Positions 21,334 to 38,448 of a stretch of 55,132 bases of DNA are shown in pieces. A program made the position numbers and the translations under genes. Under the pieces are notes generated by a model. That model worked only from the letters and a program-made list of their open reading frames with translations, did not search any database and was not told the DNA's origin. The DNA is from Bacillota bacterium (GTDB lineage: Bacteria > Sysuimicrobiota > Sysuimicrobiia > Sysuimicrobiales > Segetimicrobiaceae): assembly GCA_021324975.1 (NCBI GenBank), contig JAJPIA010000062.1:1-55132 (forward strand), in the 5' to 3' direction. Numbering within the stretch: position 1 is the stretch's first letter; each line of letters starts with the position of its first letter.

Positions 21334-21339
21334 GAAGCG

Positions 21340-22347: not shown

Positions 22348-23320
22348 GGGGACCCACGTCTTCCTGACCGGCGCCACCGGCTTCGTCGGGCGCCACGTGC
22401 TCCGTGCCCTCAGCGCCGAGGGCTACCGGGTGCGGGCACTCGTGCGCCGCCCCGGGGACACGCTTGAGGGCGCCGAGGCGGTGCTGGGGGACCTGCGCCG
22501 GCCGGGCGAGCTCGTGCCGGCGCTCCGCGGGTGCCGCTATCTCGTGCACTGCGCGGCCCTGTACTCCTTTGCGCCCGCCGACCGGAGGGCGCTCCGCGCC
22601 GTCAACGTCGCCGGCACGGCGGGCCTCCTCGAAGCGGCGCGGGTCGCGGGCGTCGAGCGTGCGGTGGTGACGTCGAGCTCCGCGACCGTGGGGCCCGCGC
22701 GGTCCGACGGGCAGCCCGCGACCGAGGACGACCGCGCGGCCCTCGGGCACGGCTCCGGGTACCACCGGTCGAAAGTCGAGCAGGAATACGCGGCGCTGGC
22801 CGCCCGGGTCCCGGTGGTGCTGGTGCTGCCGACGACGCCGATCGGGCCCGGCGACTGGAAGCCGACGCCCACGGGCCGGCTCATCCTGGACTTTGCCAGG
22901 GGCCGCATCTTCGCCGCGCCTCCGGACGGCGGCTGCAATCTCGTCGCGGTCGAGGACGTGGCCCGCGCCCACGTGCTCGCGTTGGAGCACGGTCGCCCGC
23001 GTGAGCGGTATCTGCTCGGCGGCGACAACCTGTCGCTGGCGGACCTCTGGCGCGCGCTCGGCGATGCCACCGGCCGGCCGGTCCCGCGCCGCCGCATCCC
23101 GTACCGGCTGGCGCTGGCCCTCGGCTACGTCGACGAGGCGCGCTGCCGGCTCCAGCCGGGGAGCGTTCCCCGGGTCCCGCTCGAGGGAGTGCGGATGTCC
23201 ATCGAGCGGATGTATGTCGACAGCGCGAAGGCGCGGGCCGAGCTGGGCTACGCGCCGGGGCCGGTGTATCCGGCGCTCAAGCGCGCGGTGGCCTGGTACC
23301 GGACGCAGGGTTATGCGTAG
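22337..23320 (+). CDS. hpnA: Hopanoid-associated sugar epimerase (NAD-dependent, SDR)
   Basis: Extended short-chain dehydrogenase of 327 residues linked to hopanoid side-chain modification. NAD-binding motif TGATGFVGRHVLRAL opens the protein. The catalytic tyrosine/lysine pair is YHRSK, preceded by the serine-rich VTSSSATVGP. PTTPIGPGDWKPTPTGRLI is typical of HpnA. Start is GTG 22337, overlapping hpnH by 11 bases. The gene is followed, with an 8-base overlap, by hpnG. Confidence 0.92.
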   Translation: MGTEGTHVFLTGATGFVGRHVLRALSAEGYRVRALVRRPGDTLEGAEAVLGDLRRPGELVPALRGCRYLVHCAALYSFAPADRRALRAVNVAGTAGLLEAARVAGVERAVVTSSSATVGPARSDGQPATEDDRAALGHGSGYHRSKVEQEYAALAARVPVVLVLPTTPIGPGDWKPTPTGRLILDFARGRIFAAPPDGGCNLVAVEDVARAHVLALEHGRPRERYLLGGDNLSLADLWRALGDATGRPVPRRRIPYRLALALGYVDEARCRLQPGSVPRVPLEGVRMSIERMYVDSAKARAELGYAPGPVYPALKRAVAWYRTQGYA

Positions 23321-23987
23321 CGGCGCCGGGCGGGTTACCGTGCTGGCCGCGACCGGCCTCGAAGCCTGGGCCGCGCGCCGGACGATCCGGGGCGCGCGTA
23401 TCATCGCAGCGGGGATCCGCCTCGGCCGGCTGCGCAGCCGGGCCTTCGACGGCGCGGTGATCACGTGCGGTCTCGCCGGCAGCGTCGATCCCGGCGTCCC
23501 CCCCGGCACGGTCGTGATCCCCGGCCGGGTGCTCCGGCCGGACGGTCGTTGGGTCGACTGCGATCCCGGACTTGTGGATGCGTTCACCCAGGCCGCCCGC
23601 CGGTTGGGATTCCTCCCGGAGTGCCGGCCGCTTGGAACGGCGTCCGAGTTTGTCCGAGGCGCTGCTCGCGGAACGTGGGCGGCCCGCGGCTGCGCCGCGG
23701 TCGATATGGAGACCGGCATGATCGAGGCTCCGCGGCTTGCGGCCGTGCGGGTCGTGCTCGATGCTCCGTGCAGCGAGCTCGGGTCGGCGTGGGAGCGGCC
23801 GGCGTCGGTTCTCGTGCGTCCCCGGGCATGGGGCGAGGCGGTGTGGCTCCTCGGGGCGGCGCCGCGGTACGCGCGTCGCGCCGCGGCCGTCGTCGCGGCC
23901 GCGCTGCCGTGCATCGAGCAGGGTGCCTTGCGCGCGGCGCCGCGGGATCGGCGACGGGCCGATGTGATGGCCGGGGGTGCGCGGTAA
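23313..23987 (+). CDS. hpnG: Adenosylhopane nucleosidase (phosphorylase superfamily)
   Basis: Removes adenine from adenosylhopane to give ribosylhopane. The 224-residue protein belongs to the purine phosphorylase/MTA-SAH nucleosidase fold: CGLAGSVDPGVPPGTVVIP is the phosphate/ribose loop region and AVDMETGMIE the ribose-binding DMET motif. Its N terminus overlaps hpnA, and the next ATG (prenyl synthase) is 4 bases after its stop. The overall similarity is distant, so the name rests partly on operon position. Confidence 0.85.
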   Translation: MRSGAGRVTVLAATGLEAWAARRTIRGARIIAAGIRLGRLRSRAFDGAVITCGLAGSVDPGVPPGTVVIPGRVLRPDGRWVDCDPGLVDAFTQAARRLGFLPECRPLGTASEFVRGAARGTWAARGCAAVDMETGMIEAPRLAAVRVVLDAPCSELGSAWERPASVLVRPRAWGEAVWLLGAAPRYARRAAAVVAAALPCIEQGALRAAPRDRRRADVMAGGAR

Positions 23988-23991
23988 CGGC

Positions 23992-24945
23992 ATGACGGGC
24001 GGCGATGAGCAGCTCGGCGTGTCGCAGGCCGGTCCGTCACTTGTCTTGTCGCCCCAGGCGCGCCAGGCGGTCGAAGCGCGGCTTGCGGCCGATCGTCACG
24101 CGGTCGAAGACGCGCTCGACCGGCTCGTTGGCGCGAACGGCATCCCGCCCACCCTGTACGAGGCGATACGGTACAGCGTGTTTGCCGGCGGGAAGCGGCT
24201 CCGGCCGCTCCTCGTCATCGCCGCGGCCGAGGTCGGGGGGAGCGTGGCCGATGCGGTCCTGCCGGCGGCATGCGCCGTCGAACTGGTCCATACCTACTCG
24301 CTGATCCACGACGACCTACCGGCGATGGACGATTCGCCGACCCGGCGCGGGCGGCCGACGTGCCACGTCGTCTACGGCGACGCGCTCGCCGTGCTCGCCG
24401 GCGATGGGCTCCAGGCCCTGGGATTTGACCTCCTGGCGCAGAACGCCGGCGTCCGGGGCATGCCCCCCGACCGCGTCGTCCGCGCGATCGCCGCGCTCGC
24501 GCAGGGGATCGGGGCGCGGGGCATGGTCGGCGGGCAGACGCTGGATCTGCTCGCGGCGCGTGATCGGTCCCGCGACGTTCGGGAGATTCACCGCCTCAAG
24601 ACGGGCGCGCTGATCGAGGCCTGTCTCCGCATCGGCGGCCTGCTCGGCGGGGCATCCGACACGGACCTGGAGGCGCTCGCACGATACGGCGCCCACGTCG
24701 GGCTCGCGTTTCAGATCGTGGACGACCTCCTGGATGTGCTCGGCGACGAAGCGGCGCTCGGCAAGCACACGGGGAGCGACGCGGCGCAGGCCAAGCTCAC
24801 CTTTCCCGGGGCGTTCGGCGTGACCGCCGCGCGCGAGCTTGCGCACGAAGCGACGGCGCAGGCGGTCCTGGCCCTCGAGCCGCTCGGCGCGCGCGGGTGC
24901 TGGTTGCGCGACCTGGCGATTTATCTGTTGACCCGCGATCGGTGA
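23992..24945 (+). CDS. Polyprenyl (farnesyl/geranylgeranyl) diphosphate synthase
   Basis: Head-to-tail prenyltransferase, 317 residues. Visible motifs: FAGGKRLRPLLV, the first aspartate-rich motif HDDLPAMDDSPTRRGRPTCH, KTGALIEACL, and the second aspartate-rich motif QIVDDLLDVLGD. As last gene of the hopanoid operon it most likely supplies farnesyl diphosphate to HpnD; chain length cannot be proven by eye. ATG 23992 is preferred over the in-frame GTG 23977, which lies inside hpnG. Confidence 0.92.
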   Translation: MTGGDEQLGVSQAGPSLVLSPQARQAVEARLAADRHAVEDALDRLVGANGIPPTLYEAIRYSVFAGGKRLRPLLVIAAAEVGGSVADAVLPAACAVELVHTYSLIHDDLPAMDDSPTRRGRPTCHVVYGDALAVLAGDGLQALGFDLLAQNAGVRGMPPDRVVRAIAALAQGIGARGMVGGQTLDLLAARDRSRDVREIHRLKTGALIEACLRIGGLLGGASDTDLEALARYGAHVGLAFQIVDDLLDVLGDEAALGKHTGSDAAQAKLTFPGAFGVTAARELAHEATAQAVLALEPLGARGCWLRDLAIYLLTRDR

Positions 24946-24948
24946 TCC

Positions 24949-24969
24949 GGCCGGCGGTTGCCGCCGGTC
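24949..24969 (+). terminator. GC-rich hairpin after the hopanoid operon
   Basis: CCGGCGG-TTG-CCGCCGG, extended by a wobble and a G-C pair, directly follows the stop of the prenyl synthase. There is no T-tract, so it is a weak terminator candidate or a transcript 3'-end stabiliser. Confidence 0.4.
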
Positions 24970-25168
24970 CCCGAGTGCCCGATTCGCGGCCTGGGAGCCG
25001 GGCCGGCAGGGGCCATTCCGCCGTCATCGGAGCGTCATGCCCCTCGTGTAACCTCCACCTGGGAACGTCTCCGCGGAGCCGCACCGTATTGATTGAGGGG
25101 TTCTACGCAAGGGATCCGGGCCCCAGCGTGCGGCTTCGATTCTCCGGGTCCCGAGGGGGAACGATAGG

Positions 25169-26287
25169 ATGGTGAGGTTGCGGTACCTCGAGTTCGTAGT
25201 GGTCGTGGCGCTGATCGCCGCGTTCAGCGGCGGTGCCGGCGCCACGGTCGCGTCATATGTGCGTCCGCACGCTGTCGAGGCGGCGGGCGCGCCGGCCGCG
25301 GCGCCGGCACCGGCGCCCGCGGGCGCCCGGAGCCCGTTTGTCGCCGCGGTGGCGCGCGTCCGGCCAGCCGTCGTCAACATCAGCACGGTCGAGACCGTGC
25401 AGAACCCGTTTGGGCAGCAGGCGGCGCCGTTCTTCGGGCTGCCCCGCGGCCCCATCCAGCAAAAGGCCATCGGCTCGGGCGTCATCGTGAGTAGGGACGG
25501 CTACATTTTGACGAACGCGCACGTCGTGGACGGCGCGCAGCAGCTGACGGTGACGCTGCTCGACGGCCGCACGTTCAAGGGACACGTCGTCGGGAGCGAC
25601 ACGACGACCGACCTCGCGGTGGTCAAGATCCCGGCCACCTCGCTCCCGGTGGCCCCGCTCGGCGATTCATCCGCGCTGCAGCCCGGGGACTGGGCCATCG
25701 CGATCGGGAATCCGTACGGCCTCAACTTCACCGTGACCGTCGGCGTGGTCAGCGCGATGGGCCGGACGCTGCCGAACGGGCCGGAGGAGACGTTCATCCA
25801 AACGGACGCGCCGATCAACCCGGGGAACAGCGGCGGCCCGCTCGTGGATACCGACGGGCGCGTGGTCGGCGTCAACAGTGCGAAGTTCGAGAACGCCCAG
25901 GGGATCGGGTTCTCGATCCCGATCAACACGGCGAAGGGGATCATGAGCCAGCTCATTGCGAGCGGCCGCGTCGTCCGGCCGTACCTCGGCGTGTATCTGC
26001 AGCCGTTGACCCCGGACCTGGCCGGCGAGCTCAACCTGCCGCCGGACACCAAGGGCGCGCTCGTCGCCGAGGTGGCGCCGGGCAGCCCCGCTGCGGCGGC
26101 GGGCCTCCAGCGGGGCGACGTCATCATCCAAGCCGGGGACCAGCGGACGCAGGATCCCAGCACGCTCGTGACCTACATTCATGGCCAGAAGGTGGGCTCG
26201 AAAGTGACACTCCGCGTGCTCCATCAGGGCCGCACGGTCAACGAGGCCGTGACGCTGGGAGAGACGCCGCCGGCGCCGGCCTCGTAG
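25169..26287 (+). CDS. HtrA/DegP-family serine protease with one PDZ domain
   Basis: Envelope quality-control protease of 372 residues. The N-terminal hydrophobic segment (about 7-30) is a signal anchor, followed by an Ala/Pro linker. Trypsin-like domain with catalytic His in TNAHVV, Asp in TTDLAVVKI and Ser in NPGNSGGPL; a single PDZ domain fills about residues 275-365 (LGVYLQPLTPDL to GRTVNEAVTL). It has its own 220-bp upstream region and is closed by a strong hairpin, so it is monocistronic. Confidence 0.94.
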   Translation: MVRLRYLEFVVVVALIAAFSGGAGATVASYVRPHAVEAAGAPAAAPAPAPAGARSPFVAAVARVRPAVVNISTVETVQNPFGQQAAPFFGLPRGPIQQKAIGSGVIVSRDGYILTNAHVVDGAQQLTVTLLDGRTFKGHVVGSDTTTDLAVVKIPATSLPVAPLGDSSALQPGDWAIAIGNPYGLNFTVTVGVVSAMGRTLPNGPEETFIQTDAPINPGNSGGPLVDTDGRVVGVNSAKFENAQGIGFSIPINTAKGIMSQLIASGRVVRPYLGVYLQPLTPDLAGELNLPPDTKGALVAEVAPGSPAAAAGLQRGDVIIQAGDQRTQDPSTLVTYIHGQKVGSKVTLRVLHQGRTVNEAVTLGETPPAPAS

Positions 26288-26327
26288 CACGCCGTGGCAC
26301 GCTTCACATAACCCGATAATTCGAACG

Positions 26328-26358
26328 CGCGGGGCCGGCCCAACGGGCCGGCCCCGCG
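26328..26358 (+). terminator. Strong intrinsic-type hairpin after htrA
   Basis: A perfect 14-bp stem (CGCGGGGCCGGCCC and its complement) with a 3-base loop lies 40 bases after the htrA stop. It is followed by only a short T-containing stretch (CATCATTTG). It marks the boundary between the compact left half and the more disordered right half of the window. Confidence 0.75.
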
Positions 26359-26437
26359 AGCATCATTTGCTTCCACCGCACCCGGCCGTAATCCGCGCTG
26401 CAAGCGGGCCGTGGTCGGCGGCCGCAGGCGGATCGAA

Positions 26438-26502
26438 TTTACCGTCTGTTATCGTCCTGGTTATGCTCCGGTAACGTTCACCCGGCTGAAACTTAGTAGG
26501 CT
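26438..26502 (+). promoter_or_regulatory. Repeated composite promoter, copy A (upstream of the 113-aa protein)
   Basis: TTTACC at 26438, TTAT at 12-15, GTTATG at 23-28 and GGTAACG at 33-39 of the element, followed 20 bp later by the -10 hexamer TAGGCT (26497-26502). Halves 3 and 4 also form a dyad (GTTA...TAAC). The leader to the next ATG is about 200 bases. Confidence 0.75.
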
Positions 26503-26707
26503 GGGAGTACCGATACGGGGCTCGGAGCATTCCGGCGGGAACGCGATTGTCCCCCGGCAGGTGCTTCGGAGTCCGCTCAGGCGCCGCCGGCCGCGGTGAT
26601 GTGTCGTCGCGGTTCCGATTGGCAAATGTCCTGCGACCCACACGCGAATATGGCCGAGGCGCTCGTGCGCGAACAGCGCGCACAATTTGAGAACGAGGAA
26701 CGCTGCG

Positions 26708-27049
26708 ATGAACCTGTCTCGATTCTTCCCGCACCGTGGGGCGGAGGGACACCATCTTGTGGGGCACATCGCCGATGTGCCGCGGGTTGTCGAACAGCTT
26801 GATCCGCCCGCCAAGATCATGGTGTTTCACATCGCCGAGGCCGCGAATCTGGAGTTCCACCTGACGATGCTTCCGACGACGCCGGCACGCCACAAGGGCG
26901 ATCGCGTGGAGCTGGTCTGGACCCGGGAGACCCGCGGGACTGCGATCGTGGACACGCTGTATTCGGCGCCAGACATCGGGGAGATCCGCCGGCGGAACGC
27001 AGAATACCTCCACAAGATTGTGGAGAGTGCGTCCCGCGGCCCGCAATGA
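26708..27049 (+). CDS. Uncharacterised 113-aa protein, paralog of the gene at 50731
   Basis: I do not recognise this family. The soluble, beta-rich sequence contains HLVGHIADVPRVVEQ, MVFHIAE, MLPTTPARHKGDRVEL and a C-terminal RRRNAEYLHKI helix. More than half of the residues are identical by eye to the 114-residue product at 50731-51075. The strand pattern with GDRVEL is reminiscent of a small OB-like barrel, which is only a suggestion. ATG 26708 has GAGG 10 bases upstream. The stop overlaps the start of the next small gene (ATGA). Transcription probably starts from promoter copy A. Confidence 0.75.
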   Translation: MNLSRFFPHRGAEGHHLVGHIADVPRVVEQLDPPAKIMVFHIAEAANLEFHLTMLPTTPARHKGDRVELVWTRETRGTAIVDTLYSAPDIGEIRRRNAEYLHKIVESASRGPQ

Positions 27050-27243
27050 CCGCGCACCCGCAGCTCACAGAGGCGGAGTGGGCGTTGTTGATCGATCTCC
27101 TGCAAGAGGAGCGGCGCGCGCTCCCGAGCGAGATCCGCCATACGAGCCGGAAGCTTCTGCGCATGGCCCTGCACGAACGACTCGCGATGGTAGACGCGCT
27201 ACTTATGCGGCTCGGGCGCCCGGTCACACACGCGGCCGGTTAA
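27046..27243 (+). CDS. Small helical protein, 65 aa
   Basis: Starts in an ATGA overlap with the 113-residue gene, so the two are co-translated. The sequence (LTEAEWALLIDLLQEERRALPSEIRH...LHERLAMVDALLMRL) is predicted to be two or three amphipathic helices and resembles the many small uncharacterised bacterial proteins that open with an 'L-x-E-E' helix. No metal-binding or catalytic motif. The second paralog at 50731 lacks this partner. Confidence 0.6.
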   Translation: MTAHPQLTEAEWALLIDLLQEERRALPSEIRHTSRKLLRMALHERLAMVDALLMRLGRPVTHAAG

Positions 27244-27713
27244 CCGTCGCGGCGATCCGGCCCGGTCACGCCGCCGCCGGCGCTGCGACCGGAGGCCGGC
27301 GTCGGACGGCCGCGCACGGCATCATCGCCGGCATCGCGGGCGAGCGACGGGTCGACCCTCTCCACCACGGCGGTGAGGCCGCCGAGAGCACGCTCGACAC
27401 GGACGATCCTCACACGCGTGCCTTGTTCGATCGGTGCGGCTGAAACACTGCGCCACAGTTCCCCCCGGTAGCGGATCACGCCCTCGGGGGTCAGCGGTGT
27501 GACGGCGACGGCGCTGCCTCCGGCCATGCTCTCGATCCCCGTCTGGGGGGCAAACTGCACGGAGCGGACGACGGCCCGCCGGGCGTACCATGACGCCACG
27601 CCGACGGCGAGGCACAGGGGCGCCGCAATTGTTCGCGGCAGGTACATGAACAGGGCGGCACTGAGGATCACCGGTACAAGGAACACGAGCTCACTCTCCA
27701 CTGCTGCACGCAC
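27240..27713 (-). CDS. NfeD-like membrane protein with C-terminal OB domain
   Basis: 157 residues: a hydrophobic N terminus with about two membrane spans (LVFLVPVILSAALFMYLP; IAAPLCLAVGVASWY) and a soluble domain with the NfeD hallmark PEGVIRYRGELWRSVSAAPIEQGTRVRIVRV. Short NfeD proteins usually act with stomatin/flotillin partners; none is present here. It converges with the 65-residue gene, overlapping by 4 bases. The C-terminal tail is low-complexity and Gly/Arg-rich. Confidence 0.75.
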   Translation of the reverse strand: MRAAVESELVFLVPVILSAALFMYLPRTIAAPLCLAVGVASWYARRAVVRSVQFAPQTGIESMAGGSAVAVTPLTPEGVIRYRGELWRSVSAAPIEQGTRVRIVRVERALGGLTAVVERVDPSLARDAGDDAVRGRPTPASGRSAGGGVTGPDRRDG

Positions 27714-27863: not shown

Positions 27864-28691
27864 CTAGAGCTTGAGCGCGCCGGCGGTCGCACCCCGCACC
27901 AAATAACGTTGGATGAACGCAAACGTAAGAATCAAGGGCATCGCGACGATGAACACGCCGGCGGCGAGCAGCGTCCATTCGCTTTCGTATTGTCCGTAGA
28001 AGCTGAACAGGCCCCGCGTCAGCGGGAAATAGTCGTTCGACGCCAAGAATACGACGGGACCGATGAGGTCGTTCCACGTGGAGACGGCCGCGTAGATGCT
28101 CACGGTTACGAGCGCCGGTGTGGACAAGGGCAGGAGGATCTGCAGGACGTAGCGGAAGTAGCCGCAGCCGTCGAGCAGCGCACTCTCGTCCAGATCCTTC
28201 GGGACGTTCGAAAAATAGCCGGCGAAGAACAGGACCCCGAGCGTGAGCCCCAGTTGCAGGTGGAGCAGGATGTATCCCCACCGGGTATTGTACAACCCGA
28301 GCTTCTCCGCCTCGATGAAGAGCGGAACGATGCTGACCGGCAGGAAGAACCCCGCGAGGAACAGGGAGTAAATGAAGGACCCGCCCCGTACGTACCGCCG
28401 GGCGATAGGGAAGGCCACGAAGACGGCAAACAGCACCGAGAGCATCGTCGATGATGCGGTATAGATCACGGAGTTGACGAAGTACCGGCCGAAGTCCCCC
28501 TGCACCCACGCGGTTGGATAGTTCGCCAGTACGAACGGGTGCGGGAACGAGAAGGGATTCCGCAGGAACTGAACCGGCGATTGGAACGAGACGCTGAGCA
28601 GGTACAGCAGGGGCAGGCCGTACAGCGGCACGATGATCACCACGGCCAGCGCGAGCTTCCAGGCGTGATCCCAGGCGCGCCGCCGTCGCAT
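27864..28691 (-). CDS. Sugar ABC transporter permease, MalG/UgpE type
   Basis: Inner-membrane permease (275 residues) of a carbohydrate-uptake CUT1 system. About six membrane spans; the EAA loop that contacts the ATPase reads DESALLDGCGYFRYVLQILLPLSTPALVT. ATG 28691 overlaps the stop of the upstream permease (TGATG), so the longer N terminus in the open frame is not used. No ATPase gene is adjacent, as is common where one MsiK-like ATPase serves several systems. Confidence 0.9.
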   Translation of the reverse strand: MRRRRAWDHAWKLALAVVIIVPLYGLPLLYLLSVSFQSPVQFLRNPFSFPHPFVLANYPTAWVQGDFGRYFVNSVIYTASSTMLSVLFAVFVAFPIARRYVRGGSFIYSLFLAGFFLPVSIVPLFIEAEKLGLYNTRWGYILLHLQLGLTLGVLFFAGYFSNVPKDLDESALLDGCGYFRYVLQILLPLSTPALVTVSIYAAVSTWNDLIGPVVFLASNDYFPLTRGLFSFYGQYESEWTLLAAGVFIVAMPLILTFAFIQRYLVRGATAGALKL

Positions 28692-29677
28692 CACACGCTT
28701 ACCTCCCGTCGCCTCAGAAACCACTGCAGCGGGAGCGCCGCCGCCATCGTCAGCACGAACATCATGACGGCCACCGACGCGCCGAGCCCAAGATCTCCTG
28801 AGCCCTCGAACGAGGTGTTGAACATGTACATGCCGAGGGTGTTGGTGTTGCTCGTGCCATCTGTCAGGACGTAGATGATGTCATACACGTTCATCGAGCC
28901 GACCGTCGCCAACAGGACGTTGACGGTGGTGGCGCTGCTGATGAGCGGATACGTGACCTTGCGGAAGACGGACCAGCGGCCTGCTCCGTCCATCTGCGCG
29001 GCCTCGAACAGCTCGTGCGGGATGTTATCCATGCTCGCGAGGTAGACCAGCGCCGTGAAGCCGACGTTCGCCCAGATCTGGACGAAGATGACCAGAACCA
29101 GCGCGAGCGTCGGTGACCCGAAGAAGGCGCTTGACGTATGAAACGCCGCCAGCAGGCCGGCCGCCGGTCCTTGGCTCGGGCTGAAGATGAGGAGCCATAG
29201 GATGCCGTTGATGGTGACGCCCAGGGCGGCCGGCAGGAAAATCATGGACCTGAGGGCGCCGACGAAGGGGAGTGGATTCCGGAGGAGCACAGCCAGCGCC
29301 AGCGCGACGGCGTTTTGAATGACGGTGACCGAGAGCGCGAAGACGAGCGTGGTCTCGAGCGAGGCGCTGAAGCCGCTCGCGGCGTTGCTGATCATACTGA
29401 TAAAGTTGGCGAGCCCGACGAACTGCACCGCCTGGCCGGGAATGCCGGCATAGTTGGTGAGAGACACGAGAAACGTGCCCAGTGCCGGCCCGATGGAGAA
29501 CAACAGGTAGGCGAGGATCGGCAGGATCATGGCCGCCGCCGGCGCGCGGTACGGAAAGACGTGCCGGCGCGCCCGCCATGGCGAGGGGGCGGCCCGCGCG
29601 ACGGGCGCAGATCGTGCGCCCGTCGCGGGTCGCGCGTGCTCGTCGCGCAGGCGGTCAGATCGAAGGTCGCCGCGCAC
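28691..29677 (-). CDS. Sugar ABC transporter permease, MalF/UgpA type
   Basis: Partner permease, 328 residues, with an Arg/Ala-rich N-terminal extension (about 45 residues) before the first span, and an EAA loop HELFEAAQMDGAGRWSVFRKVTYPLISS. It precedes the MalG-type gene with a TGATG overlap. Upstream, where the binding-protein gene should be, only its 3' remnant survives (29719-29896). The start is uncertain because the extension is compositionally odd. Confidence 0.88.
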   Translation of the reverse strand: MRGDLRSDRLRDEHARPATGARSAPVARAAPSPWRARRHVFPYRAPAAAMILPILAYLLFSIGPALGTFLVSLTNYAGIPGQAVQFVGLANFISMISNAASGFSASLETTLVFALSVTVIQNAVALALAVLLRNPLPFVGALRSMIFLPAALGVTINGILWLLIFSPSQGPAAGLLAAFHTSSAFFGSPTLALVLVIFVQIWANVGFTALVYLASMDNIPHELFEAAQMDGAGRWSVFRKVTYPLISSATTVNVLLATVGSMNVYDIIYVLTDGTSNTNTLGMYMFNTSFEGSGDLGLGASVAVMMFVLTMAAALPLQWFLRRREVSV

Positions 29678-29718
29678 GCGTCTCGGTCACGGTCTCCCGC
29701 CTAGGACATCTGATGCCG

Positions 29719-29896
29719 CTACTTGTGCATCATCGAGTCCCAGGCGGTCTGCCACTGCTGGGCCGCCTGCTGCGGTGGCAGTTGCCCGATGAGCACCTGC
29801 TGCAGCGTGTTGTAGAAGTTGGGCGGCTGCAGGCCGAACGGCCCAGCGCTCGGCAGGCTCGGTTCGGCATTCGCCTCCAGCAGGCCCGTCCTCTAA
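29719..29896 (-). pseudogene. 3' remnant of a sugar ABC transporter substrate-binding protein
   Basis: Reading the minus strand, an open segment ends in NFYNTLQQVLIGQLPPQQAAQQWQTAWDSMMHK-stop. This is the usual C-terminal pattern of extracellular family-1 solute-binding proteins. Everything upstream of about RTGLLEAN is missing and an in-frame TAG precedes it. It sits directly 5' of the MalF/MalG genes, where the binding protein is expected. A truncated promoter element abuts its broken 5' end, so one deletion appears to have removed half the promoter and nearly all of the gene. Confidence 0.65.
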
Positions 29897-29919
29897 ACGC
29901 TATCACAATCGACAGTAAA
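29885..29919 (-). promoter_or_regulatory. Truncated promoter element (copy Q)
   Basis: Minus strand: TTTAC at 1-5, ATTG at 11-14, GTTTAG at 22-27 and GACGG at 30-34, as in copies J and O. The match stops before CAACG, and the sequence continues as the binding-protein remnant. No -10 at the expected place (GAGCCT). Confidence 0.5.
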
Positions 29920-30020
29920 ATCGGCGCCCGGGCCGCGGCGTTCAGCCTCGGGCACATCGACGATCCATTATTCATCTCGTATCGCGTGCGCTGAGCGCGG
30001 CGGACGCATGACGCGCGTAG

Positions 30021-30085
30021 TTTACCAAAAGTTTCCATGCAGTTTGGAGTCTCGCAACGTCAGACATCCGCGAGGCGTCTCATGC
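30021..30085 (+). promoter_or_regulatory. Degenerate promoter element (copy K)
   Basis: TTTACC at 30021, AGTTTCC at 10-16, GTTTGG at 22-27 and CGCAACG at 33-39 keep the full spacing. The -10 position holds TCATGC instead of TAnnnT. It points toward coxB, about 350 bp away. Confidence 0.45.
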
Positions 30086-30110
30086 CGGGGATGTTCTTTC
30101 TCCGCGCGAG

Positions 30111-30149
30111 GTTACGGCTTCTTATACTGCAAGTTACGCTTCCGTAATG
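30111..30149 (+). promoter_or_regulatory. Degenerate promoter element (copy N)
   Basis: GTTACG at 1-6, TT at 12-13, GTTACG at 23-28 and CCGTAATG at 32-39. The last two parts form a good dyad (TTACG-CTTC-CGTAA). No clear -10 follows 20 bp later. It lies 51 bp beyond the end of copy K's GCAACG, in the same direction. Confidence 0.4.
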
Positions 30150-30436
30150 CCGGTCGCGAATGTCGTCGGCTTTGCCTGGGAATAACCGGGCAGGGAAGGT
30201 ACGTGCCTCGGACCATCGAAGGTGTCGGGGGCTGCAAGGCCTCAGCGAGTCGTCATCCCGAAACACGAATTGCCAATCTTGCGCACCGGGAAACACGTGG
30301 AGCCCCGCCGGACGACGAGCGTGAGTGGCGCCTACCTAATAGCGTAACGCGCCGAAGCAGCGTGAAACTGCAAGGCGGCACACGGCGGGCGTATAGCTTC
30401 GCGCGGAACGTGAACGCACAGAGGCGACGAGACTAG

Positions 30437-31360
30437 ATGCAATTCAGCTCCCCTTTCAACCCGGCATCGCCGGAAGGAGCAGCGACCAAGTCTCTGCTGG
30501 AGCTGGTGTTGTGGCTTGGTGCCGGCGTGTTCGTCATTGTTGCCGGTCTCGTGTTGATCGCGGCGGTCCGGTTTCGCGCCCGGCCGGGCGCACCGGAGCC
30601 GCCGCCGGTGCAGGTCCGGCACCAGTGGGAGTACGTGTGGATCGCCGCCGCCGTCGCCATCCTCATCGCGATCTTCATCCCCACGGTCGCCATGATGCGG
30701 GCAACTGCCCCGCCCGGCGGCTCTGAGGATCCGAGTCCGGACCTTATCATCATCGGGCACCAGTGGTGGTGGGAAATCCGATACCCGAACAGCCATGTGG
30801 TGACTGCGAACGAGGTTCGGATACCCGTCGGGCGGCCGATGATAGCCCGGCTCGAGTCGGCGGACGTGATCCATGACTTTTGGGTGCCGCAATTGGCGCG
30901 TAAGGAAGATCTCACCCCCGGCTATCCGACGACGGTCGTGCTTCGGGCGGACCGGCCGGGAACGTATCTCGGCGCCTGCGTGGAATTCTGCGGCGTCGGG
31001 CACGCATGGATGCGCATCTCGGTGATCGCGGAGTTTCCGCAGGCGTTTGACGCCTGGCTGGCTTCCGAGCGGAGGCCGCCTCCGGCGCCTTCGACGCCCG
31101 ATGCGATCGCGGGAGCGAAGCTGTACGAGTCGCTCTCCTGCGACCACTGTCACGCCTCGGCTGTCGCCGTCGGGCCGGACCTCACGCACATTGCGACCCG
31201 CGTAACGCTGGCCGGCGGACGGATGCCCAACACGCCGGAGAATCTCGCCCGCTGGCTTGCGGATCCTCAGGCGCTCAAGCCGGGCGCGCTCATGCCGGAC
31301 TTCCGGCTCGCCCCGGACCAGATCCGGGACCTCGTGGCGTACTTGGAGACCCGTCGATGA
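30437..31360 (+). CDS. coxB: Cytochrome c oxidase subunit II with fused cytochrome c (caa3 type)
   Basis: 307 residues: two membrane spans (about 20-45 and 65-88), then the periplasmic CuA domain with the ligand set in VIHDFWVP and CVEFCGVGHAWM (both Cys, Glu carbonyl, His, Met). A C-terminal cytochrome c domain follows, with haem motif CDHCH near residue 234 and distal Met in GALMPDF. It receives electrons directly from the bc-type complex and passes them to subunit I. The stop overlaps the ATG of coxAC. First gene of a seven-gene respiratory operon. Confidence 0.95.
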   Translation: MQFSSPFNPASPEGAATKSLLELVLWLGAGVFVIVAGLVLIAAVRFRARPGAPEPPPVQVRHQWEYVWIAAAVAILIAIFIPTVAMMRATAPPGGSEDPSPDLIIIGHQWWWEIRYPNSHVVTANEVRIPVGRPMIARLESADVIHDFWVPQLARKEDLTPGYPTTVVLRADRPGTYLGACVEFCGVGHAWMRISVIAEFPQAFDAWLASERRPPPAPSTPDAIAGAKLYESLSCDHCHASAVAVGPDLTHIATRVTLAGGRMPNTPENLARWLADPQALKPGALMPDFRLAPDQIRDLVAYLETRR

Positions 31361-33594
31361 GCGAGCTGTCGTTGCCTCGAGACATTCCGCAGCCCGCGGA
31401 GACGCATGGGACGGGGTTGTTCGCGTGGATCGCGTCGCTCGACCATAAGCAGATCGGTATCATGTACCTGATCGCCACACTCGTCTTCTTCCTCGCGGGC
31501 GGCGTGCAGGCGCTCCTCATGCGCACACAGCTGATCCGGCCGGAAAACAGCTTTATCGGCCCGGGGACGTTCGACGAGCTGTTCACGATGCACGGCACGA
31601 CGATGATCTTCCTGGTCGTGATGCCGATGCTGATCGGCTTCGCGACGTACCTCGTCCCGCTGCAGGTTGGCGCGCGCGACATCGCGTTCCCGCGCATGAA
31701 CGCGATGAGCTTCTGGTTCCTGGTATTCGGGGGACTACTCTTGTACTACAGCTACGTTGCGGGTGGAGCGCCCGACGCCGGATGGTTCAGCTACGCGCCG
31801 CTCAGCGAGCGCCCGTTCAGCATGACGACGGGTGTCGACTACTGGGCGCTCGGCCTGCTGTCCACCGGCATCGGCACCATCACCGCCGGCATCAATCTCA
31901 TGGTGACGATCCTCGCTCTTCGGGCGCCGGGGATGACGCTGACGCGGCTGCCGTTGTTCACATGGATGGTGCTCGTCAACTCGGTGCTCATCCTGCTCGC
32001 CCTGCCGGTGCTGAACGCCTCGCTCGTGGAACTCCTCATCGACCGGCTGCTGAATGCGCATGTGTTCGCGCCGCAGGGCGGGGGGTCCGCGGTGCTGTGG
32101 CAGCACTACTTCTGGGCGTTCGGACACCCCGAAGTATATATCATGGTGCTGCCGGCGTTCGGGATCATTTCCGAGATCATCCCCGTGTTCAGCAGCAAGC
32201 CGATCTACGGGTACGAGTTTGTCGCCGCATCCACGGCCGCGATCGCGTTTCTGAGCCTCGTCGTGTGGGCGCACCATATGTTCGCAGTCGGGCTCGGATT
32301 CGCGTCCGACCTGTTCTTCGCGATCACGAGTATGCTCATTGCGGTGCCGACCGGGATCAAGGTGCTCAACTGGACTGCAACGCTCTGGCGGGGGTCGTTG
32401 CGCCTGACGACGGCGATGCTGTTCTGCCTCGCGTTTCTTGCGATGTTCACGATCGGGGGCATCAGCGGAGTGAGCTTCACGGCGGTGCCCGTCGATTGGC
32501 AGGTCGAGGACACCTACTACGTCGTCGCCCACATGCACTACGTGCTGTTCGGGGGCTCGGCCTTCGCGCTGTTTGCGGGATTCTACTACTGGTTCCCCAA
32601 AATGACGGGGCGCCTGATGGACGAGACGTTGGGGAAGTGGCATTTTTGGCTGGCCTTCGTCGGGTTCAACATGACATTCATGATCCAGCACGTGCTCGGC
32701 TTGATGGGTATGCCGCGGCGCGTTTACACATATCCCAATTTGCCGGACTGGGGCACGTTCAACTACATCTCAACGATCGGATCGTACATTCTAGCGCTCT
32801 CGGTGCTCGTGTTCATCTGGAACATGCTGCGGAGCCTGCGCCACGGCGCCGAGGCCGGGGATAACCCGTGGGGGGCGTGGAGCTTGGAGTGGGCCACCGC
32901 GTCGCCGCCTCCCGAGCACAACTTCGACCGCGTCCCGCCGATCTGGGGCCGCCGCCCGCTCTGGGACCTGGCGCACCCGGCGGCGTCGGGCCGGCCGTCC
33001 TGGTGGCGAGAATTAGCGCAGCGTGTGCGGCGACCGGCAATGCCGCCGGCGCAGATGGGCATGCTGCTCTTTATCGGGTCCGAGGCAACGTTTTTTGTGG
33101 TGCTGATCATCTCCTACGCCTACTACCACCTGAACCCGTCGCCGGGGCCGACCGCGTCGCAGGTGCTGCACCCCGCCGCCGCGGGCCTCAACACCGCGTT
33201 CCTGATTGCCAGCAGCGTTACGCTGTGGTGGGGCATGCGCCAGCAACGCCGCGGCCGCCGGGGGAGCTTTATCGGCTGGCTCGCGGCGACGATCGTGCTC
33301 GGCGCGCTGTTCCTGTTCGGCCAGGGGCGCGAGTGGCTCGGGCTCCTTACATCCAACGTGACCGTGGCGCGGGACCTGTTTGGCGCCACCTTCTTCACGC
33401 TCACCGGATTTCACGGCCTGCACGTCTTTCTCGGGCTGCTGCTGTTGGTGATGCTGTTTGTGCTTGCCTTGCTGGGCCAGTTCCGCGGTCGCACGTCCGT
33501 GGGCGTTGAGTCCGTCTCGCTGTACTGGCATTTCGTCGACGCAGTATGGATCGTGCTCTACACGCTGATCTACGTGTGGGCGTTCGTGAAGTGA
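31357..33594 (+). CDS. Cytochrome c oxidase subunits I and III fused
   Basis: A 745-residue fusion. Residues about 1-540 are subunit I: haem and CuB ligands in TMHGTTMIF, HPEVY (CuB His cross-linked to Tyr, and the proton-channel Glu, thus A1-like), WAHHMFAVG, and VVAHMHYVLFGG. After a Pro-rich linker, about 555-745 is subunit III (GMLLFIGSEATFF, TFFTLTGFHGLHVFLGL, YWHFVDAVWIVLYTLIYV). CoxAC fusions are known in some caa3 operons. Starts in an ATGA overlap with coxB; ends overlapping ctaG. Confidence 0.95.
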   Translation: MSELSLPRDIPQPAETHGTGLFAWIASLDHKQIGIMYLIATLVFFLAGGVQALLMRTQLIRPENSFIGPGTFDELFTMHGTTMIFLVVMPMLIGFATYLVPLQVGARDIAFPRMNAMSFWFLVFGGLLLYYSYVAGGAPDAGWFSYAPLSERPFSMTTGVDYWALGLLSTGIGTITAGINLMVTILALRAPGMTLTRLPLFTWMVLVNSVLILLALPVLNASLVELLIDRLLNAHVFAPQGGGSAVLWQHYFWAFGHPEVYIMVLPAFGIISEIIPVFSSKPIYGYEFVAASTAAIAFLSLVVWAHHMFAVGLGFASDLFFAITSMLIAVPTGIKVLNWTATLWRGSLRLTTAMLFCLAFLAMFTIGGISGVSFTAVPVDWQVEDTYYVVAHMHYVLFGGSAFALFAGFYYWFPKMTGRLMDETLGKWHFWLAFVGFNMTFMIQHVLGLMGMPRRVYTYPNLPDWGTFNYISTIGSYILALSVLVFIWNMLRSLRHGAEAGDNPWGAWSLEWATASPPPEHNFDRVPPIWGRRPLWDLAHPAASGRPSWWRELAQRVRRPAMPPAQMGMLLFIGSEATFFVVLIISYAYYHLNPSPGPTASQVLHPAAAGLNTAFLIASSVTLWWGMRQQRRGRRGSFIGWLAATIVLGALFLFGQGREWLGLLTSNVTVARDLFGATFFTLTGFHGLHVFLGLLLLVMLFVLALLGQFRGRTSVGVESVSLYWHFVDAVWIVLYTLIYVWAFVK

Positions 33595-34448
33595 CGACGT
33601 GGCATGTGCTCGCGCTGACGTGGACGTGGGAGCCGTCCGTGGTGGCCGGCTGCACCGCGTTGGCGGGGGCCTACCTGGGCTTCTCCGGCCGCCCGCTCGG
33701 ATGGGGGCGCACCTTGTCCTTCATGACGGGCGTGGCGATCCTGCTGCTCGCGCTCGATTCCCCGCTCGACGGACTCGGGGACCGCTACCTCTTCAGCGCG
33801 CACATGGCGCAGCACATGCTCCTCGTGTTGATCGTGCCGCCGCTCCTCATCCTGGGGATCCGCCCCGCGTGGGTGCGCGCCGCGCTCGCTGTCCCGGGGG
33901 TGCGCCCGCTCGAGCATGTGCTCCGTCGTCCAGCGGTGGCGTGGCTCATAGGGATCGGTACGCTGTGCACGTGGCATGTGCCGGCGCTGTACAATCGTGC
34001 GCTCGCAAACGCCTTGGTGCACCTCGCGCAGCATCTCAGCTTTCTTGTGGCGAGCACCATCTTTTGGTGGCCGGTGTGTGCGCCCCTCGCGGAGCTGCGG
34101 ATGCCCGCTCTGGGCGCGATCCTCTACCTGTTTGCCGCCTCGCTCGCTTCAAGCGGCTTGGGGATCGCGCTCACCTTTGCACGCCCGGGTCTGTATCCCG
34201 CGTACCTGCATCCGAACGACGTTCTGGGCGTGCTCCCTGTCATCCGGGGCGGCTGGAGTCTCACGCCGGCAGTGGACGAGCAGGTCGGGGGCCTCTTGAT
34301 GTGGGTGCCCGGCGGGCTCGTGTACCTGTGCGCGATCCTCGCGACGCTCGGCCGATGGTATCGGGAGGAGGACGAGCATGAGATGAGGGCGGGTGACGCG
34401 ACCCCATCGGGGCAGGAGGCAAGGCCGTATGTCACACCAATGGCATGA
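33591..34448 (+). CDS. ctaG: Cytochrome c oxidase assembly protein CtaG (caa3_CtaG family)
   Basis: Multi-span membrane protein (285 residues, about seven segments) needed for CuB insertion or assembly of caa3 oxidase. Family signatures: LDSPLDGLGDRYLFSAHMAQHMLLVLIVPPLLILG and the TWHVPALYNRAL segment with conserved histidines. GTG 33591 is the start, overlapping the coxAC stop by 4 bases. The same strand and overlap place it in the oxidase operon. Confidence 0.92.
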   Translation: MTTWHVLALTWTWEPSVVAGCTALAGAYLGFSGRPLGWGRTLSFMTGVAILLLALDSPLDGLGDRYLFSAHMAQHMLLVLIVPPLLILGIRPAWVRAALAVPGVRPLEHVLRRPAVAWLIGIGTLCTWHVPALYNRALANALVHLAQHLSFLVASTIFWWPVCAPLAELRMPALGAILYLFAASLASSGLGIALTFARPGLYPAYLHPNDVLGVLPVIRGGWSLTPAVDEQVGGLLMWVPGGLVYLCAILATLGRWYREEDEHEMRAGDATPSGQEARPYVTPMA

Positions 34449-34695
34449 GGCGGGTCGGCGGGCAGAGGAGGCCGGCTCCGCCGCGGCGCAGGAATACGAG
34501 GGCTGGAACGTGCCGGTCCCGGAGCATCTCCCCCGGCGCACCCTGTGGCCCGTCGCAACGGCCCTGGGCACGGTCCTGATCTTTTGGGGAGTGGTTACTT
34601 CCTACTTGACCTTCGCCGTCGGCGTCGGACTGCTCGCGCTTTCTGTGGCAGGTTGGATCCAGGAGATCCGGGCGGAAGGACGATCCCATGAGTAG
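34429..34695 (+). CDS. Small oxidase-associated membrane protein (subunit IV-like)
   Basis: 88 residues with two hydrophobic stretches ([17 protein letters not shown] and [16 protein letters not shown]) after a charged N terminus. Size and position between ctaG and the Rieske gene match the small, poorly conserved subunit IV found in caa3 operons. GGAGG stands 8-12 bases before ATG 34429; the upstream in-frame codons lie within ctaG. Assignment rests mostly on context. Confidence 0.7.
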
Positions 34696-35218
34696 CGGGG
34701 TCCCGGGATCGGGCCACTCCGGGGGCGCGGAGGAGCTCCGGCGGCGCGATTTTCTGACCCGGCTGTGCCTCGGGTTGAGCCTTTTTGCCGGCCTCATCGT
34801 CGCGGTTCCCTTCGTGGGGTTCCTCATCGCGCCCCTGTTGGAGCGGGTCGTGCAGGTCTGGCGCCCGGTCGGTACGGTCGACCAGTTTGCGGTCGGGACG
34901 ACATCGAAGGTCGCGTTTGTCGATTCCTCGCCGCTTCCCTGGGCCGGCGTCGTCGCGCGGACCGCGGCGTGGCTGCGCCGGGACGGACCCGCGCAGTTCG
35001 TGGCTTTCTCCGTCAACTGCACACACTTGGGATGCCCGGTGCGGTGGCTGCAGGACGCGGAGCTATTTCTGTGCCCATGCCATGGGGGCGTGTACTACAA
35101 GGACGGGACGGTGGCAGCCGGTCCGCCGCCACGGCCGCTGCCGCGGTACCCGGTGCGCGTCCGCAGCGGGCAGGTCGAGATTCTGACGAGTCCGTTGCCC
35201 GTGACCACGGTACGGTAG
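34688..35218 (+). CDS. Rieske iron-sulfur protein of a bc-type complex
   Basis: 176 residues. Starts with a charged segment and [12 protein letters not shown] before a membrane anchor (about 27-50), suggesting Tat-type insertion. The 2Fe-2S ligands are in CTHLGCPV and CPCHGGVYY, and the proline loop is [13 protein letters not shown]. It transfers electrons from quinol to the cytochrome c domain of the complex. It overlaps the previous gene by 8 bases; the cytochrome b gene follows 7 bases after its stop. Confidence 0.95.
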
Positions 35219-35225
35219 GTATCGG

Positions 35226-36623
35226 ATGGACCGCCTGCGGCGCGCGTGGGAGGTGCTGGACGACCGGTTGGGTGTGTCCAAGACCTTGGGGCCCGTCCTG
35301 CGCCATCCCGTGCCGCCGAGCGCCCGCTGGTACTACGTGTTAGGAAGCGCGACCCTCTTCGCGTTCATCGTGCAGGTCGTGACCGGGATCGCGCTTGCGC
35401 TCATGTACATCCCGTCCACCAACAACGCCTACCAAACGCTCCAGTTCATCACGCACGATGCGCCGTTCGGACGCGTGCTGCGAGGGATCCACTATTGGGG
35501 CGCGTCGGCGATGATCCTGCTCATCGGGCTCCACATGGCGCGCGTGTTTCTCATGGGCGCGTACAAGTACCCGCGGGAGGCCAACTGGCTGACCGGTGTG
35601 GTTCTGTTCATGGTGACGATCGTCATCGCGTTCACGGGCCAGCTCCTGCGGTGGGACCAGACGGCCGTGTGGACGGTGGCCGTCACGGCGGAGCAGGCGG
35701 GCCGGATCCCATTTATCGGCGGCGCCGTTGCACACTTTCTGCTGGCGGGCGATACGTGGAGCGGCGAGACCCTGAGCCGATTCTACGCGTTCCACGTCTT
35801 TTTCATCCCGGCGATCATCTTCATCTTCGTGGGTGTCCACTTGTGGCTGGTCCTGCACCACGGCATCTCCGAGCCGCCCGTGGCAGGCCGCCCGGTGGAC
35901 CCAAAGACGTACCGCACGTGGTATCATGCGATGCTGGAGCGCGAGGGCCGGCCGTTCTGGCCGGACGCCGCCTGGCGCGACGTCGCGTTCGGCGTCGGGA
36001 TCATCACGGCGATCGTGCTGCTCGCGGTGATCGTCGGACCTCCCGAGCTGGACCGGCCGCCGGATCCAACGCTGCTGAACGCCGACCCGCGGCCCGACTG
36101 GTACCTGCTGTGGTACTTCGCGGCGCTCGCGTTGATCCCGCCGAAGCTGGAAAACGCCTTCATGATTTTCGGGCCGCTCCTCGCCGCTGTGGTGTTGCTT
36201 GTGATCCCGTTCGTCTCGAATCGGGGCGAGCGGAGCTCGTCGCGCCGTCCGTGGGCCGTCGCGAGCGTCGGCGTCGTCTGCCTCATGATCGCCACGCTCT
36301 GGATCGCCGGGGTCCGCGCTCCGTGGTCACCGGATTTCAGCGCGCGACTGCTGCCGGAACAGGTCGTCGGGACGGCGAGCGGTCCGGTGGCCGTGGGCGC
36401 GCGGCTCTTCCTCGATAAGGGGTGCGAGTACTGCCATACGGTCGCCGGCCACGGTGGGAAACGAGGCCCCGACCTGACCTATGTCGGCGACCGGCTCAGC
36501 GTTGACCAAATGACGTGGCGAATTCTGAACGGCGGCACCAACATGCCGGCCTTTGCGAACAATATCACACCGCAGCAGCTTAATGACTTGATCGCGTTTC
36601 TCAAATCACGCACGCGGCGGTAG
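35226..36623 (+). CDS. Cytochrome b fused to a C-terminal cytochrome c domain
   Basis: 465 residues. The first 220 form the cytochrome b N-terminal four-helix core with haem-ligand histidines (GIHYWGASAMILLIGLH and FYAFHVFFIP...VHLWLVLHH). About 220-350 carry the C-terminal part with PPxLxN-like quinol-site region (DWYLLWYFAALALIPPKLENAF). The last about 90 residues are a cytochrome c domain, CEYCH haem motif and distal Met in NMPAF. This replaces a separate cytochrome c1. Together with Rieske and CoxB-cytochrome c it gives a quinol-to-oxygen chain in one operon. Confidence 0.94.
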   Translation: MDRLRRAWEVLDDRLGVSKTLGPVLRHPVPPSARWYYVLGSATLFAFIVQVVTGIALALMYIPSTNNAYQTLQFITHDAPFGRVLRGIHYWGASAMILLIGLHMARVFLMGAYKYPREANWLTGVVLFMVTIVIAFTGQLLRWDQTAVWTVAVTAEQAGRIPFIGGAVAHFLLAGDTWSGETLSRFYAFHVFFIPAIIFIFVGVHLWLVLHHGISEPPVAGRPVDPKTYRTWYHAMLEREGRPFWPDAAWRDVAFGVGIITAIVLLAVIVGPPELDRPPDPTLLNADPRPDWYLLWYFAALALIPPKLENAFMIFGPLLAAVVLLVIPFVSNRGERSSSRRPWAVASVGVVCLMIATLWIAGVRAPWSPDFSARLLPEQVVGTASGPVAVGARLFLDKGCEYCHTVAGHGGKRGPDLTYVGDRLSVDQMTWRILNGGTNMPAFANNITPQQLNDLIAFLKSRTRR

Positions 36624-36775
36624 CCCCGGGGTCGCGCCCCGCGCGAGGCGCCTCGACGTAACCTCGAACACGCGGTTCGCCCTCCGCAACGGACGCGCGT
36701 CGCGCCGCGCACATGTGGCGGTTGCGTCTTGCGCGTTCGCCGGGTGCCCAGCGACGTCCCGTTTCGTTATGAGAA

Positions 36776-36814
36776 TTTACGGGAAATTTCCCCGCCGTTT
36801 GCCTTCCGAGCGCG
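36776..36814 (+). promoter_or_regulatory. Truncated promoter element (copy I)
   Basis: TTTACGGGAAATTTC, then GTTTGCC at 22-28. GGCAACG and the -10 are absent, and a broken MFS gene begins about 10 bp later. Like copy Q, a promoter head appears joined to gene debris. Confidence 0.45.
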
Positions 36815-36823
36815 CCCGCCGCC

Positions 36824-37123
36824 GAGCATGGGATCTTCTTTATCAATGTGCCGGTGGGCGCAGCCGCGGTGCTCATGGGAGCGCGGTACATCGTCGATCC
36901 GCCCTACGCCCGCGCGCGGCCCGGCGGCGCGATCGACGCCGTGTGATCCGCGGGAGCAACCCGTGGACGGCCCACATGCAGGCCGTCGCGGTGCTCGGTC
37001 GGGTGTTCAACGAGCAGGCGTCGGTCATCGCCTTTGAGTACGTGTTCACGCTCATGGGCATCGGGATGCTCGCGTGCCTGCCGCTCGTGCTCCTGCTTCG
37101 GCCTGCCCGCGGGGCAGGAGACC
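36824..37123 (+). pseudogene. Remnant of an EmrB/DHA2-type MFS transporter
   Basis: Two disconnected pieces in different frames. The first (36824-36946) reads HGIFFINVPVGAAAVLMGARYIVD...GGAIDAV-stop, the mid-protein loop of DHA2 drug transporters. The second (about 36970-37110) reads MQAVAVLGRVFNEQASVIAFEYVFTLMGIGMLACLPLVLLLRP, their C-terminal helix. About 250 residues between them, and the whole N terminus, are missing. It lies between promoter copies I and H, with no start codon context. Confidence 0.7.
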
Positions 37124-37156
37124 GCCATCGGGCCCGGAGTGACGCGCGCTTGAGAA

Positions 37157-37221
37157 TTTACCGTGAATTTGCCTGACGTTGGGCCGCCGGCAACGTCAGA
37201 CGCCCGCCGCGAGAGTACCGT
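37157..37221 (+). promoter_or_regulatory. Repeated composite promoter, copy H (livJ)
   Basis: TTTACCG at 37157, AATTT at 10-14, CGTTG at 21-25, CGGCAACG at 32-39, and after exactly 20 bp the -10 hexamer TACCGT (37216-37221). The predicted leader of the binding-protein mRNA is about 30 bases. Confidence 0.8.
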
Positions 37222-37258
37222 AGATGTGCCGCGACATCGCGAGATGGGAGGTGCAGGT

Positions 37259-38386
37259 ATGCGTACCCTTGCGCCGGGCATGCTCCTCGTCACGTTGCTG
37301 GCGCTCCTTGCCCCTGCAGGCGGGGCGCAGGGAGGTCCTATCAAGCTCGGGGTTCCTGTGCCGTTGTCCGGCGGGAGCGCCGAAGCCGGCCAGGACATCC
37401 TGAACGGCGCCCGGCTCGCCGTCGACCAGGCGAATGCCAAAGGGGGGATCCTCGGCCGGAAGATCGAGATCATGTCGGCGGATGATGCGTGCGATGCGCA
37501 GCAGGGGGTGACCGCCGCGCAAAAGCTCGTCGACGCCGGCGTGGTGGCGGTCGTCGGCGGCTACTGCTCATCTGCGGCGCTCCCGGAGAGCGGCGTATTC
37601 CACACGGCGGGGGTCGCGTTCATCGCCGACGCCTCGACGAACCCGCAACTCACGGAGCAGGGATTCGATAACGTGTTCCGCGACATCGGCCGCGACGATC
37701 AGCAGGGACCGTTTGCCGCGAATGTCATGGTCAACGACTTGCACGCGCACCGGATCGCGATCGTGCACGACAATACGGTGTACGCCAAGGGATTGGCCGA
37801 GGCCACGCGCACGGCCCTCGCCGACAAGCCTGGTGTGCACGTCGTCTTCTTCGACGCGATCACGCCGGGTGAGAAGGACTTCACGGCCACGCTCACCCGC
37901 ATCAAGAGCCTCAAACCCGACGTTCTGTACTTCACCGGATACTACGCCGAGGGCGGGCTGATGGCGCGGCAGTTCAAGGCGCTCCACGTGCCGGGTGTAT
38001 TCATGGCCGGTGACGCAAACAACGACCCGACGTTCATCAAGGAAGCGGGAGCGGCCGCGAACGGCGTGCTCGTCACCTCCGCGCCGCTGGCGCAGTTTCT
38101 GCCGTCGGCCAAGGCGTACATCGCTGCCTATCGCGCGAAGTACGGCCACGCGCCTGGTCCGTACTCGGCCTACGAATACGACGCCGTTAACATCGCCGTC
38201 GCGGCGATCAAGCGAGCGCATACGACGGATCGAGCCGCGATCATCAAAGCGGTTGCGCAGACCAGGGACTTCAAGGGGATCACCGGGATCATTTCCTTCA
38301 ACGACAAGGGCGACCGGGCGGGGGTGAACTACATGGTCCTCGAGATCCGGGGCGGGAAGTTTACAGCCCACCACGCAGCAGCCTAA
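37259..38386 (+). CDS. Branched-chain amino acid-type ABC transporter substrate-binding protein
   Basis: Periplasmic/lipid-exposed receptor of a Liv-type (HAAT) uptake system, 375 residues. Signal peptide about 1-22 (MRTLAPGMLLVTLLALLAPAGGAQ). Mature part opens IKLGVPVPLSGGSAEAGQDILNGARLAVDQAN, and contains VVGGYCSSAALPES and FIADASTNPQLT, the usual ligand-loop regions. A ribosome site GGAGG lies 9 bases before ATG 37259. Followed by a strong hairpin, then LivH- and LivM-type permeases. Substrate may be an amino acid, amide or urea. Confidence 0.92.
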   Translation: MRTLAPGMLLVTLLALLAPAGGAQGGPIKLGVPVPLSGGSAEAGQDILNGARLAVDQANAKGGILGRKIEIMSADDACDAQQGVTAAQKLVDAGVVAVVGGYCSSAALPESGVFHTAGVAFIADASTNPQLTEQGFDNVFRDIGRDDQQGPFAANVMVNDLHAHRIAIVHDNTVYAKGLAEATRTALADKPGVHVVFFDAITPGEKDFTATLTRIKSLKPDVLYFTGYYAEGGLMARQFKALHVPGVFMAGDANNDPTFIKEAGAAANGVLVTSAPLAQFLPSAKAYIAAYRAKYGHAPGPYSAYEYDAVNIAVAAIKRAHTTDRAAIIKAVAQTRDFKGITGIISFNDKGDRAGVNYMVLEIRGGKFTAHHAAA

Positions 38387-38448
38387 GCGACGCGGTCGGG
38401 CGGGCGCCGCTCCAGCCGACGCCGGGACGGTGCCTGCCGCCGCCTCGA

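Follow-up and report, generated by a model that had tools for sequence, protein, structure and literature searches.

Regulators of the OmpR/PhoB family bind direct repeats (PMC4832192, PMC4415409). The Pho box is described as two 11-nt direct-repeat units, with GTTCACC in Streptomyces coelicolor (PMC4415409), and M. tuberculosis PhoP is reported to bind three and four tandem motifs as well (PMC4832192). The window, by which we mean the whole 55,132-nt stretch of DNA analyzed, carries a recurrent promoter-like element that likewise consists of 11-bp direct repeats, with a GTTTACC-like core compared with the GTTCACC given for the Pho box in the cited description. In contrast to the Pho regulon, the annotated genes associated with the element encode transporters, small proteins, a protease and perhaps an oxidase, with no phosphate gene among them. 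Another close situation is pseudogenization of a CUT1 sugar importer by deletion, and at this locus a gene remnant is in the same way followed by permease genes that are still open. What differs here is that the promoter-like element was cut in the same scar, and that a similar fusion lies at 36776. We have high confidence that the best explanation of the locus is a deletion scar which fused the head of a promoter to the tail of a sugar-binding-protein (SBP) gene, leaving an importer that is most likely dead or dying.

A recurrent promoter-like element is local to one neighborhood

Three copies of the element serve as points of reference.

40837 to 40901, plus strand: complete element copy, the reference at the joint
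46024 to 46088, minus strand: complete element copy before an SBP_bac_5 gene
30021 to 30063, plus strand: divergent neighboring copy with boxes 1 to 4 but no TAnnnT at columns 60 to 65; the counterpart in a second genome of the same genus (G002) has TAGCGT

Seventeen sites, from the genome that holds the window (G000) and from G002, form a gap-free alignment of 65 columns. It shows four boxes spaced 11 bp apart, namely, TTTACC, (A/G)TTTCC, GTTTAC/G and GGCAACG, and a TAnnnT at columns 60 to 65, corresponding to a -10 region, in 15 of the 17; the exceptions are the copy at 30021, whose similarity to G002 ends at 30063, and the copy at position 2502 of locus L062 in G002. When the first 44 columns are compared with themselves, similarity is highest at a shift of 11 and next highest at 22, and none of 5,000 column shuffles reached the value at 11.

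A pattern search allowing up to 3 mismatches found 10 sites in the own genome (9 on this contig and 1 on contig C76 at position 340) and 4 in G002. The same pattern occurred once each in three distant genomes and was absent from 56 of the 61 genomes, while its reversed control gave 2 and 1 matches in two distant genomes. The 17 sites were also used to build a sequence model, which placed 17 at 32 bits or more, with 10 on this contig, 1 elsewhere in the own genome and 6 in G002; since these are its training sites, their recovery is by construction and the result is the absence of others. Under strict filters, nothing beyond them exceeded 20 bits in 43 genomes. Weak matches of 14 to 19 bits were present in 14 of the 41 other genomes, together with three of about 19 to 20 bits on C76 and C103 of the own genome and one of 18 bits in G002. 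We considered a housekeeping promoter of this genome and rejected it, because the strong sites cluster on one contig; by its distribution, the element is local to this neighborhood. The own genome's only strong copy off this contig precedes a gene for an HtrA-like protease (locus L063, 340 to 1655, on C76).

The match to the element ends at the joint where homology to an SBP gene sets in

The features at the joint, and the genes downstream of it, are as follows. L094 and L095 denote loci of two other metagenome-assembled genomes (MAGs), both Bacillota.

29886 to 29919, minus strand: head of the recurrent promoter-like element, positions 1 to 34 (boxes 1 to 3), with the 3' half gone
29886 to 29887, minus strand: proposed deletion joint, a 2-bp GG common to promoter and SBP gene, placed by alignment with the element at 40837 and the L094 and L095 SBP genes
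29719 to 29886, minus strand: the final 55 codons plus stop of a sugar-binding protein of SBP_bac_1 type, by homology to the L094 and L095 SBPs
28691 to 29677, minus strand: MalF-type permease of 328 aa, open; PF00528; 74% identity to L094 and 68% to L095
27864 to 28724, minus strand: MalG-type permease of 286 aa, open; PF00528

On the minus strand, the sequence from 29919 reads TTTACTGTCGATTGTGATAGCGTTTAGAGGACGG and continues as GCCTGCTGGAGGCG, which runs to the stop at 29719. In an alignment with the 40837 element and both SBP genes, the window tracks the element up to GGACGG and the SBP gene from GGGCCTG; the joint reads GGAC-GG/GCCTG, with the overlapping GG at 29887-29886. Head and tail each match a complete counterpart, and both matches end at the same base. 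The original prediction had the element intact to about position 34 and joined directly to the tail of a binding-protein gene, and both statements agree with this alignment.

The head retains three of the four 11-bp-spaced boxes. With a matrix trained on 12 sites other than 29919 (8 in the window and 4 in G002), its 5' half scored 26.1 bits, the 11th best value in the window, compared with a best 5'-half score of 14.9 bits in the reversed window; its 3' half scored -20.3 bits. A strong 5' half was present at 14 window sites, and at 4 of these (29919, 36776, 46130 and 46850) the 3' half was negative; a low value there is not proof of truncation, since the plus-strand site at 46850 scores -27.4. 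Truncation at 29919 is shown by the SBP homology, which starts at the joint. The copies at 46130 and 46850, both on the plus strand, may still work despite their poor 3' halves. At 46850 a TACCGT lies one base further on, with a gene for a 48-aa protein behind it, and the spacing of the element may therefore vary.

When the head sequence itself was tried as the repeat, it occurred nowhere else in the window and just once more in the genome, at 3 mismatches, and the consensus was for this reason built from the other copies. To accommodate 29919, a pattern of three boxes was loosened by dropping one T of box 2. It matched exactly at 11 places in the 4.43-Mb genome, and this contig holds 9 of these (29919 included), compared with 3 genome-wide for the reversed pattern. 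A scan for one promoter type found no consensus sigma-70 promoter in 29600-30440, where shuffled sequences average 0.3.

A joint of this kind could also arise if two places of this genome, or of a related one in the metagenome, had been wrongly assembled together, and the genome is indeed a draft of 144 contigs. We regard this as very unlikely, given the 2 bp common to both sides. Furthermore, the longest exact match spanning the joint was 13 nt in 138 other sequences (0.82 Mb, less than the whole genome), and in a BLAST search of the whole own genome, the listed matches that cross or touch the joint were 15 to 23 bp long. A search of the 4.43-Mb assembly (completeness rating, 96%) with the first 373 SBP residues also gave no close match. 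Recombination between two element copies was rejected as a cause by reasoning, since it would leave a whole hybrid element and not a head on a gene tail.

The receptor gene is reduced to its tail, and the permease genes are open

The tail is 76 to 79% identical to the 429-aa L094 SBP, from residue 374 or 376 to residue 427. By this alignment, what is left is 55 codons and what is missing is about 375 SBP codons, together with the fourth box and the -10 of the promoter; the earlier reading of a large loss ending in an SBP tail stands, with its counts of 50 codons left and about 350 lost revised accordingly. When searched against the own genome, the L094 SBP found a close match (76%) for residues 374-427 only, the next being a 27% paralogue, and in 60 other genomes it found 31% at most.

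The truncated promoter or the remnant might still work, as the source of a short peptide, as a leader or as a decoy site for a regulator. Boxes 1 to 3 are present and could still bind a regulator, and malF and malG are open. We consider such a residual role highly unlikely, however, because no start codon lies close to where the remnant begins (the in-frame ATG, GTG and TTG codons amount to one GTG midway and two ATGs near the end), because no TAnnnT occurs at or beside columns 60 to 65 of this copy and because the tail has no match in the G002 stretches compared.

The SBP tail is on the same strand as malF and lies 41 nt before it. Both permease frames encode BPD_transp_1 family proteins, in line with the two permeases of a CUT1 importer and with the original prediction that these genes are intact; of the SBP_bac_1 receptor gene expected directly upstream of them, 55 codons are left in the window. 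The closest MalF proteins found in a contig scan were those of L094 and L095, and there a complete SBP gene (SBP_bac_1, PF01547; 429 and 432 aa, respectively) stands directly upstream of malF, so that the order SBP-malF-malG is intact in both. The proposed comparison with close relatives turned up no intact copy in the 60 genomes covered, where malF and malG had no match above 39%; the intact copies are those of these two more distant MAGs.

That scarcity would fit an insertion, in which a transferred fragment (SBP tail, malF and malG) integrated within an element copy and the SBP was never complete here; malF and malG may come from outside, and the end of malG is the sole part in common with G002. 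The insertion seems unlikely, in that the head points into the SBP on its coding strand, where an SBP promoter would lie, and in that 9 of the 11 listed element-gene pairs have the element end 27 to 206 bp before the chosen start codon. A deletion, as the original prediction had it, is supported by the orientation of the head, the SBP tail on the same strand, the open malF and malG and the intact order elsewhere. We conclude that this is very probably a real deletion scar, rightly read before, and ordinary as an event.

In the proposed sequence of events, a deletion with a 2-bp overlap, presumably a single event, would have taken the 3' part of the promoter (the fourth box and the -10) along with the leader and roughly 375 codons from the start of the SBP gene, and the promoter head would thereby have been fused to the last 55. 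With box 4 and the -10 gone, malF and malG would be left open but without this promoter and without a receptor of their own, and the importer is therefore most likely dead or dying. Permeases lacking any receptor would be a further step; another SBP may serve malF and malG.

Codon changes private to each of the three loci were counted as synonymous/nonsynonymous. They were 46/13 in malF, 40/12 in malG and 5/0 in the tail for the window; 34/7, 32/10 and 7/1 for L094; and 30/23, 30/20 and 4/7 for L095. The synonymous share in malF and malG of the window is similar to that of L094 and above that of L095. Private changes at codon positions 1, 2 and 3 number 6, 3 and 9 in the tail, a flatter profile than the 25, 21 and 67 of malF, although too few for dating. 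Relaxed selection on malF and malG is not clearly indicated by these counts, which makes a recent deletion probable; as a whole, this is an ordinary loss of a sugar importer.

In G002, an assembly rated 94% complete, there is no malF above 35%, and of malG the last 17 to 18 codons alone are kept, beside another element copy. This malG end indicates that the importer was present in a common ancestor and was cut in both lines; as read from the two assemblies, the same importer is cut at different places in the two sister genomes.

A two-component system is the most likely regulator of the element

Two regulatory genes lie near the end of the window.

49675 to 50409, minus strand: response regulator of the OmpR/PhoB family, a candidate activator of the element; PF00072 and PF00486
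53518 to 55014, minus strand: sensor histidine kinase, proposed partner; HAMP, HisKA and HATPase_c

The 3.1 kb between them (50410-53517) hold two elements, small genes and a gene with an SPW repeat; in G002 the kinase and regulator genes adjoin (contig C71). An orthologue of the regulator with 90% identity occurs in G002, and among the matches listed from the other 41 genomes none exceeds 54%. Of the 43 genomes, G000 and G002 are the two that have both the strong sites and a close regulator orthologue, and the element shows two marks of an OmpR/PhoB-type promoter, direct repeats about 11 bp apart and a co-occurring regulator of the family. By the curated cut-off, the regulator does not qualify as PhoB (TIGR02154, 219.4 bits versus 296.2), and its scores for the YycF, PhoB and MtrA models all stay under the respective cut-offs.

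The site architecture, the phyletic pattern and the location suggest that the regulator most likely acts on the element sites, the link being a correlation in two genomes of one genus, which also supplied all the sites for the sequence model. The element's function as a promoter is suggested by its sequence and position, and it would most likely be activated by this OmpR-family regulator, encoded 20 kb from the scar.

Similar fusions and rearrangements occur in the neighborhood

Compared from 12129 on, the window is colinear with contig C46 of G002 over 12129-27292, 30373-36625 and 37131-40337. The stretch between NfeD and coxB is rearranged relative to G002, and the pairs of an element with the SPW gene and with a gene for an 86-aa protein lie at different places in the two genomes. 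A further fusion was found at 36776.

36776 to 37146, plus strand: second head-to-gene fusion, an element head with two fragments of a gene for a DHA2-type MFS exporter behind it

This head has boxes 1 to 3, with 30.2 bits for the 5' half and -13.1 for the 3' half. Both fragments match a single open frame of 568 codons in G002 (L145), leaving a gap between the two, and that frame is a DHA2 exporter (TIGR00711, 445.7 bits versus a cut-off of 230.2). Taken alone, the fragments give weak and partly unrelated model matches (E values of 0.02 to 0.04, one to a PTS model). At the place of the fusion, G002 has about 65 bp only.

The scar itself is ordinary, yet it shows the dismantling of a regulated importer at a joint that can be read to the single base, and the same importer is being lost by another route in a sister genome. 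The larger interest appears to lie in the element and the two-component system, which look like a compact local regulon: the strong sites, the regulator and a family of 48-aa membrane proteins have one common phyletic pattern, and the element offers a testable regulator-target pair. The locus looks like a two-component regulon packed into one neighborhood whose transporter genes are being deleted. A broader proposal, which we put forward tentatively and think rather doubtful, is that a two-component regulon confined almost wholly to one neighborhood has its promoter-gene cassettes (transporters, 48-aa membrane proteins and other small proteins) duplicated, shuffled and truncated between sister genomes, with gene-removing deletions tending to end in the region of boxes 3 and 4; this tendency is seen in two or three cases, and heads cut elsewhere would escape notice.

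Several small genes and fragments were seen beside element copies. The 48-aa proteins (46521-46667 and 47052-47198 on the plus strand of the window, and 1393-1536 on the minus strand of L062 in G002), each behind an element copy, form a membrane protein family with one hydrophobic segment, GVWL..LCA.S...LVAL.L.L.GHL. Strong matches to the family were found in G000 and G002 only, of 61 genomes, with two weak ones in G033 (E values of 0.009 to 0.01). Paralogous proteins of 113 to 114 aa that are 59% identical and belong to no Pfam family are encoded at 26708-27049 and 50731-51075, on the plus strand, again each behind an element copy. At 43571-44188 on the minus strand, a dppB-like 5' part is fused to a dppC-like 3' part with a stop at the joint; the gene before this fusion is a complete SBP_bac_5 gene, and here a receptor is left without permeases, the reverse of malF and malG. 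In G002, a second SBP_bac_5 gene (L062, 2503 to 2840) seems, by eye, to be reduced to a signal peptide and the C-terminal end.
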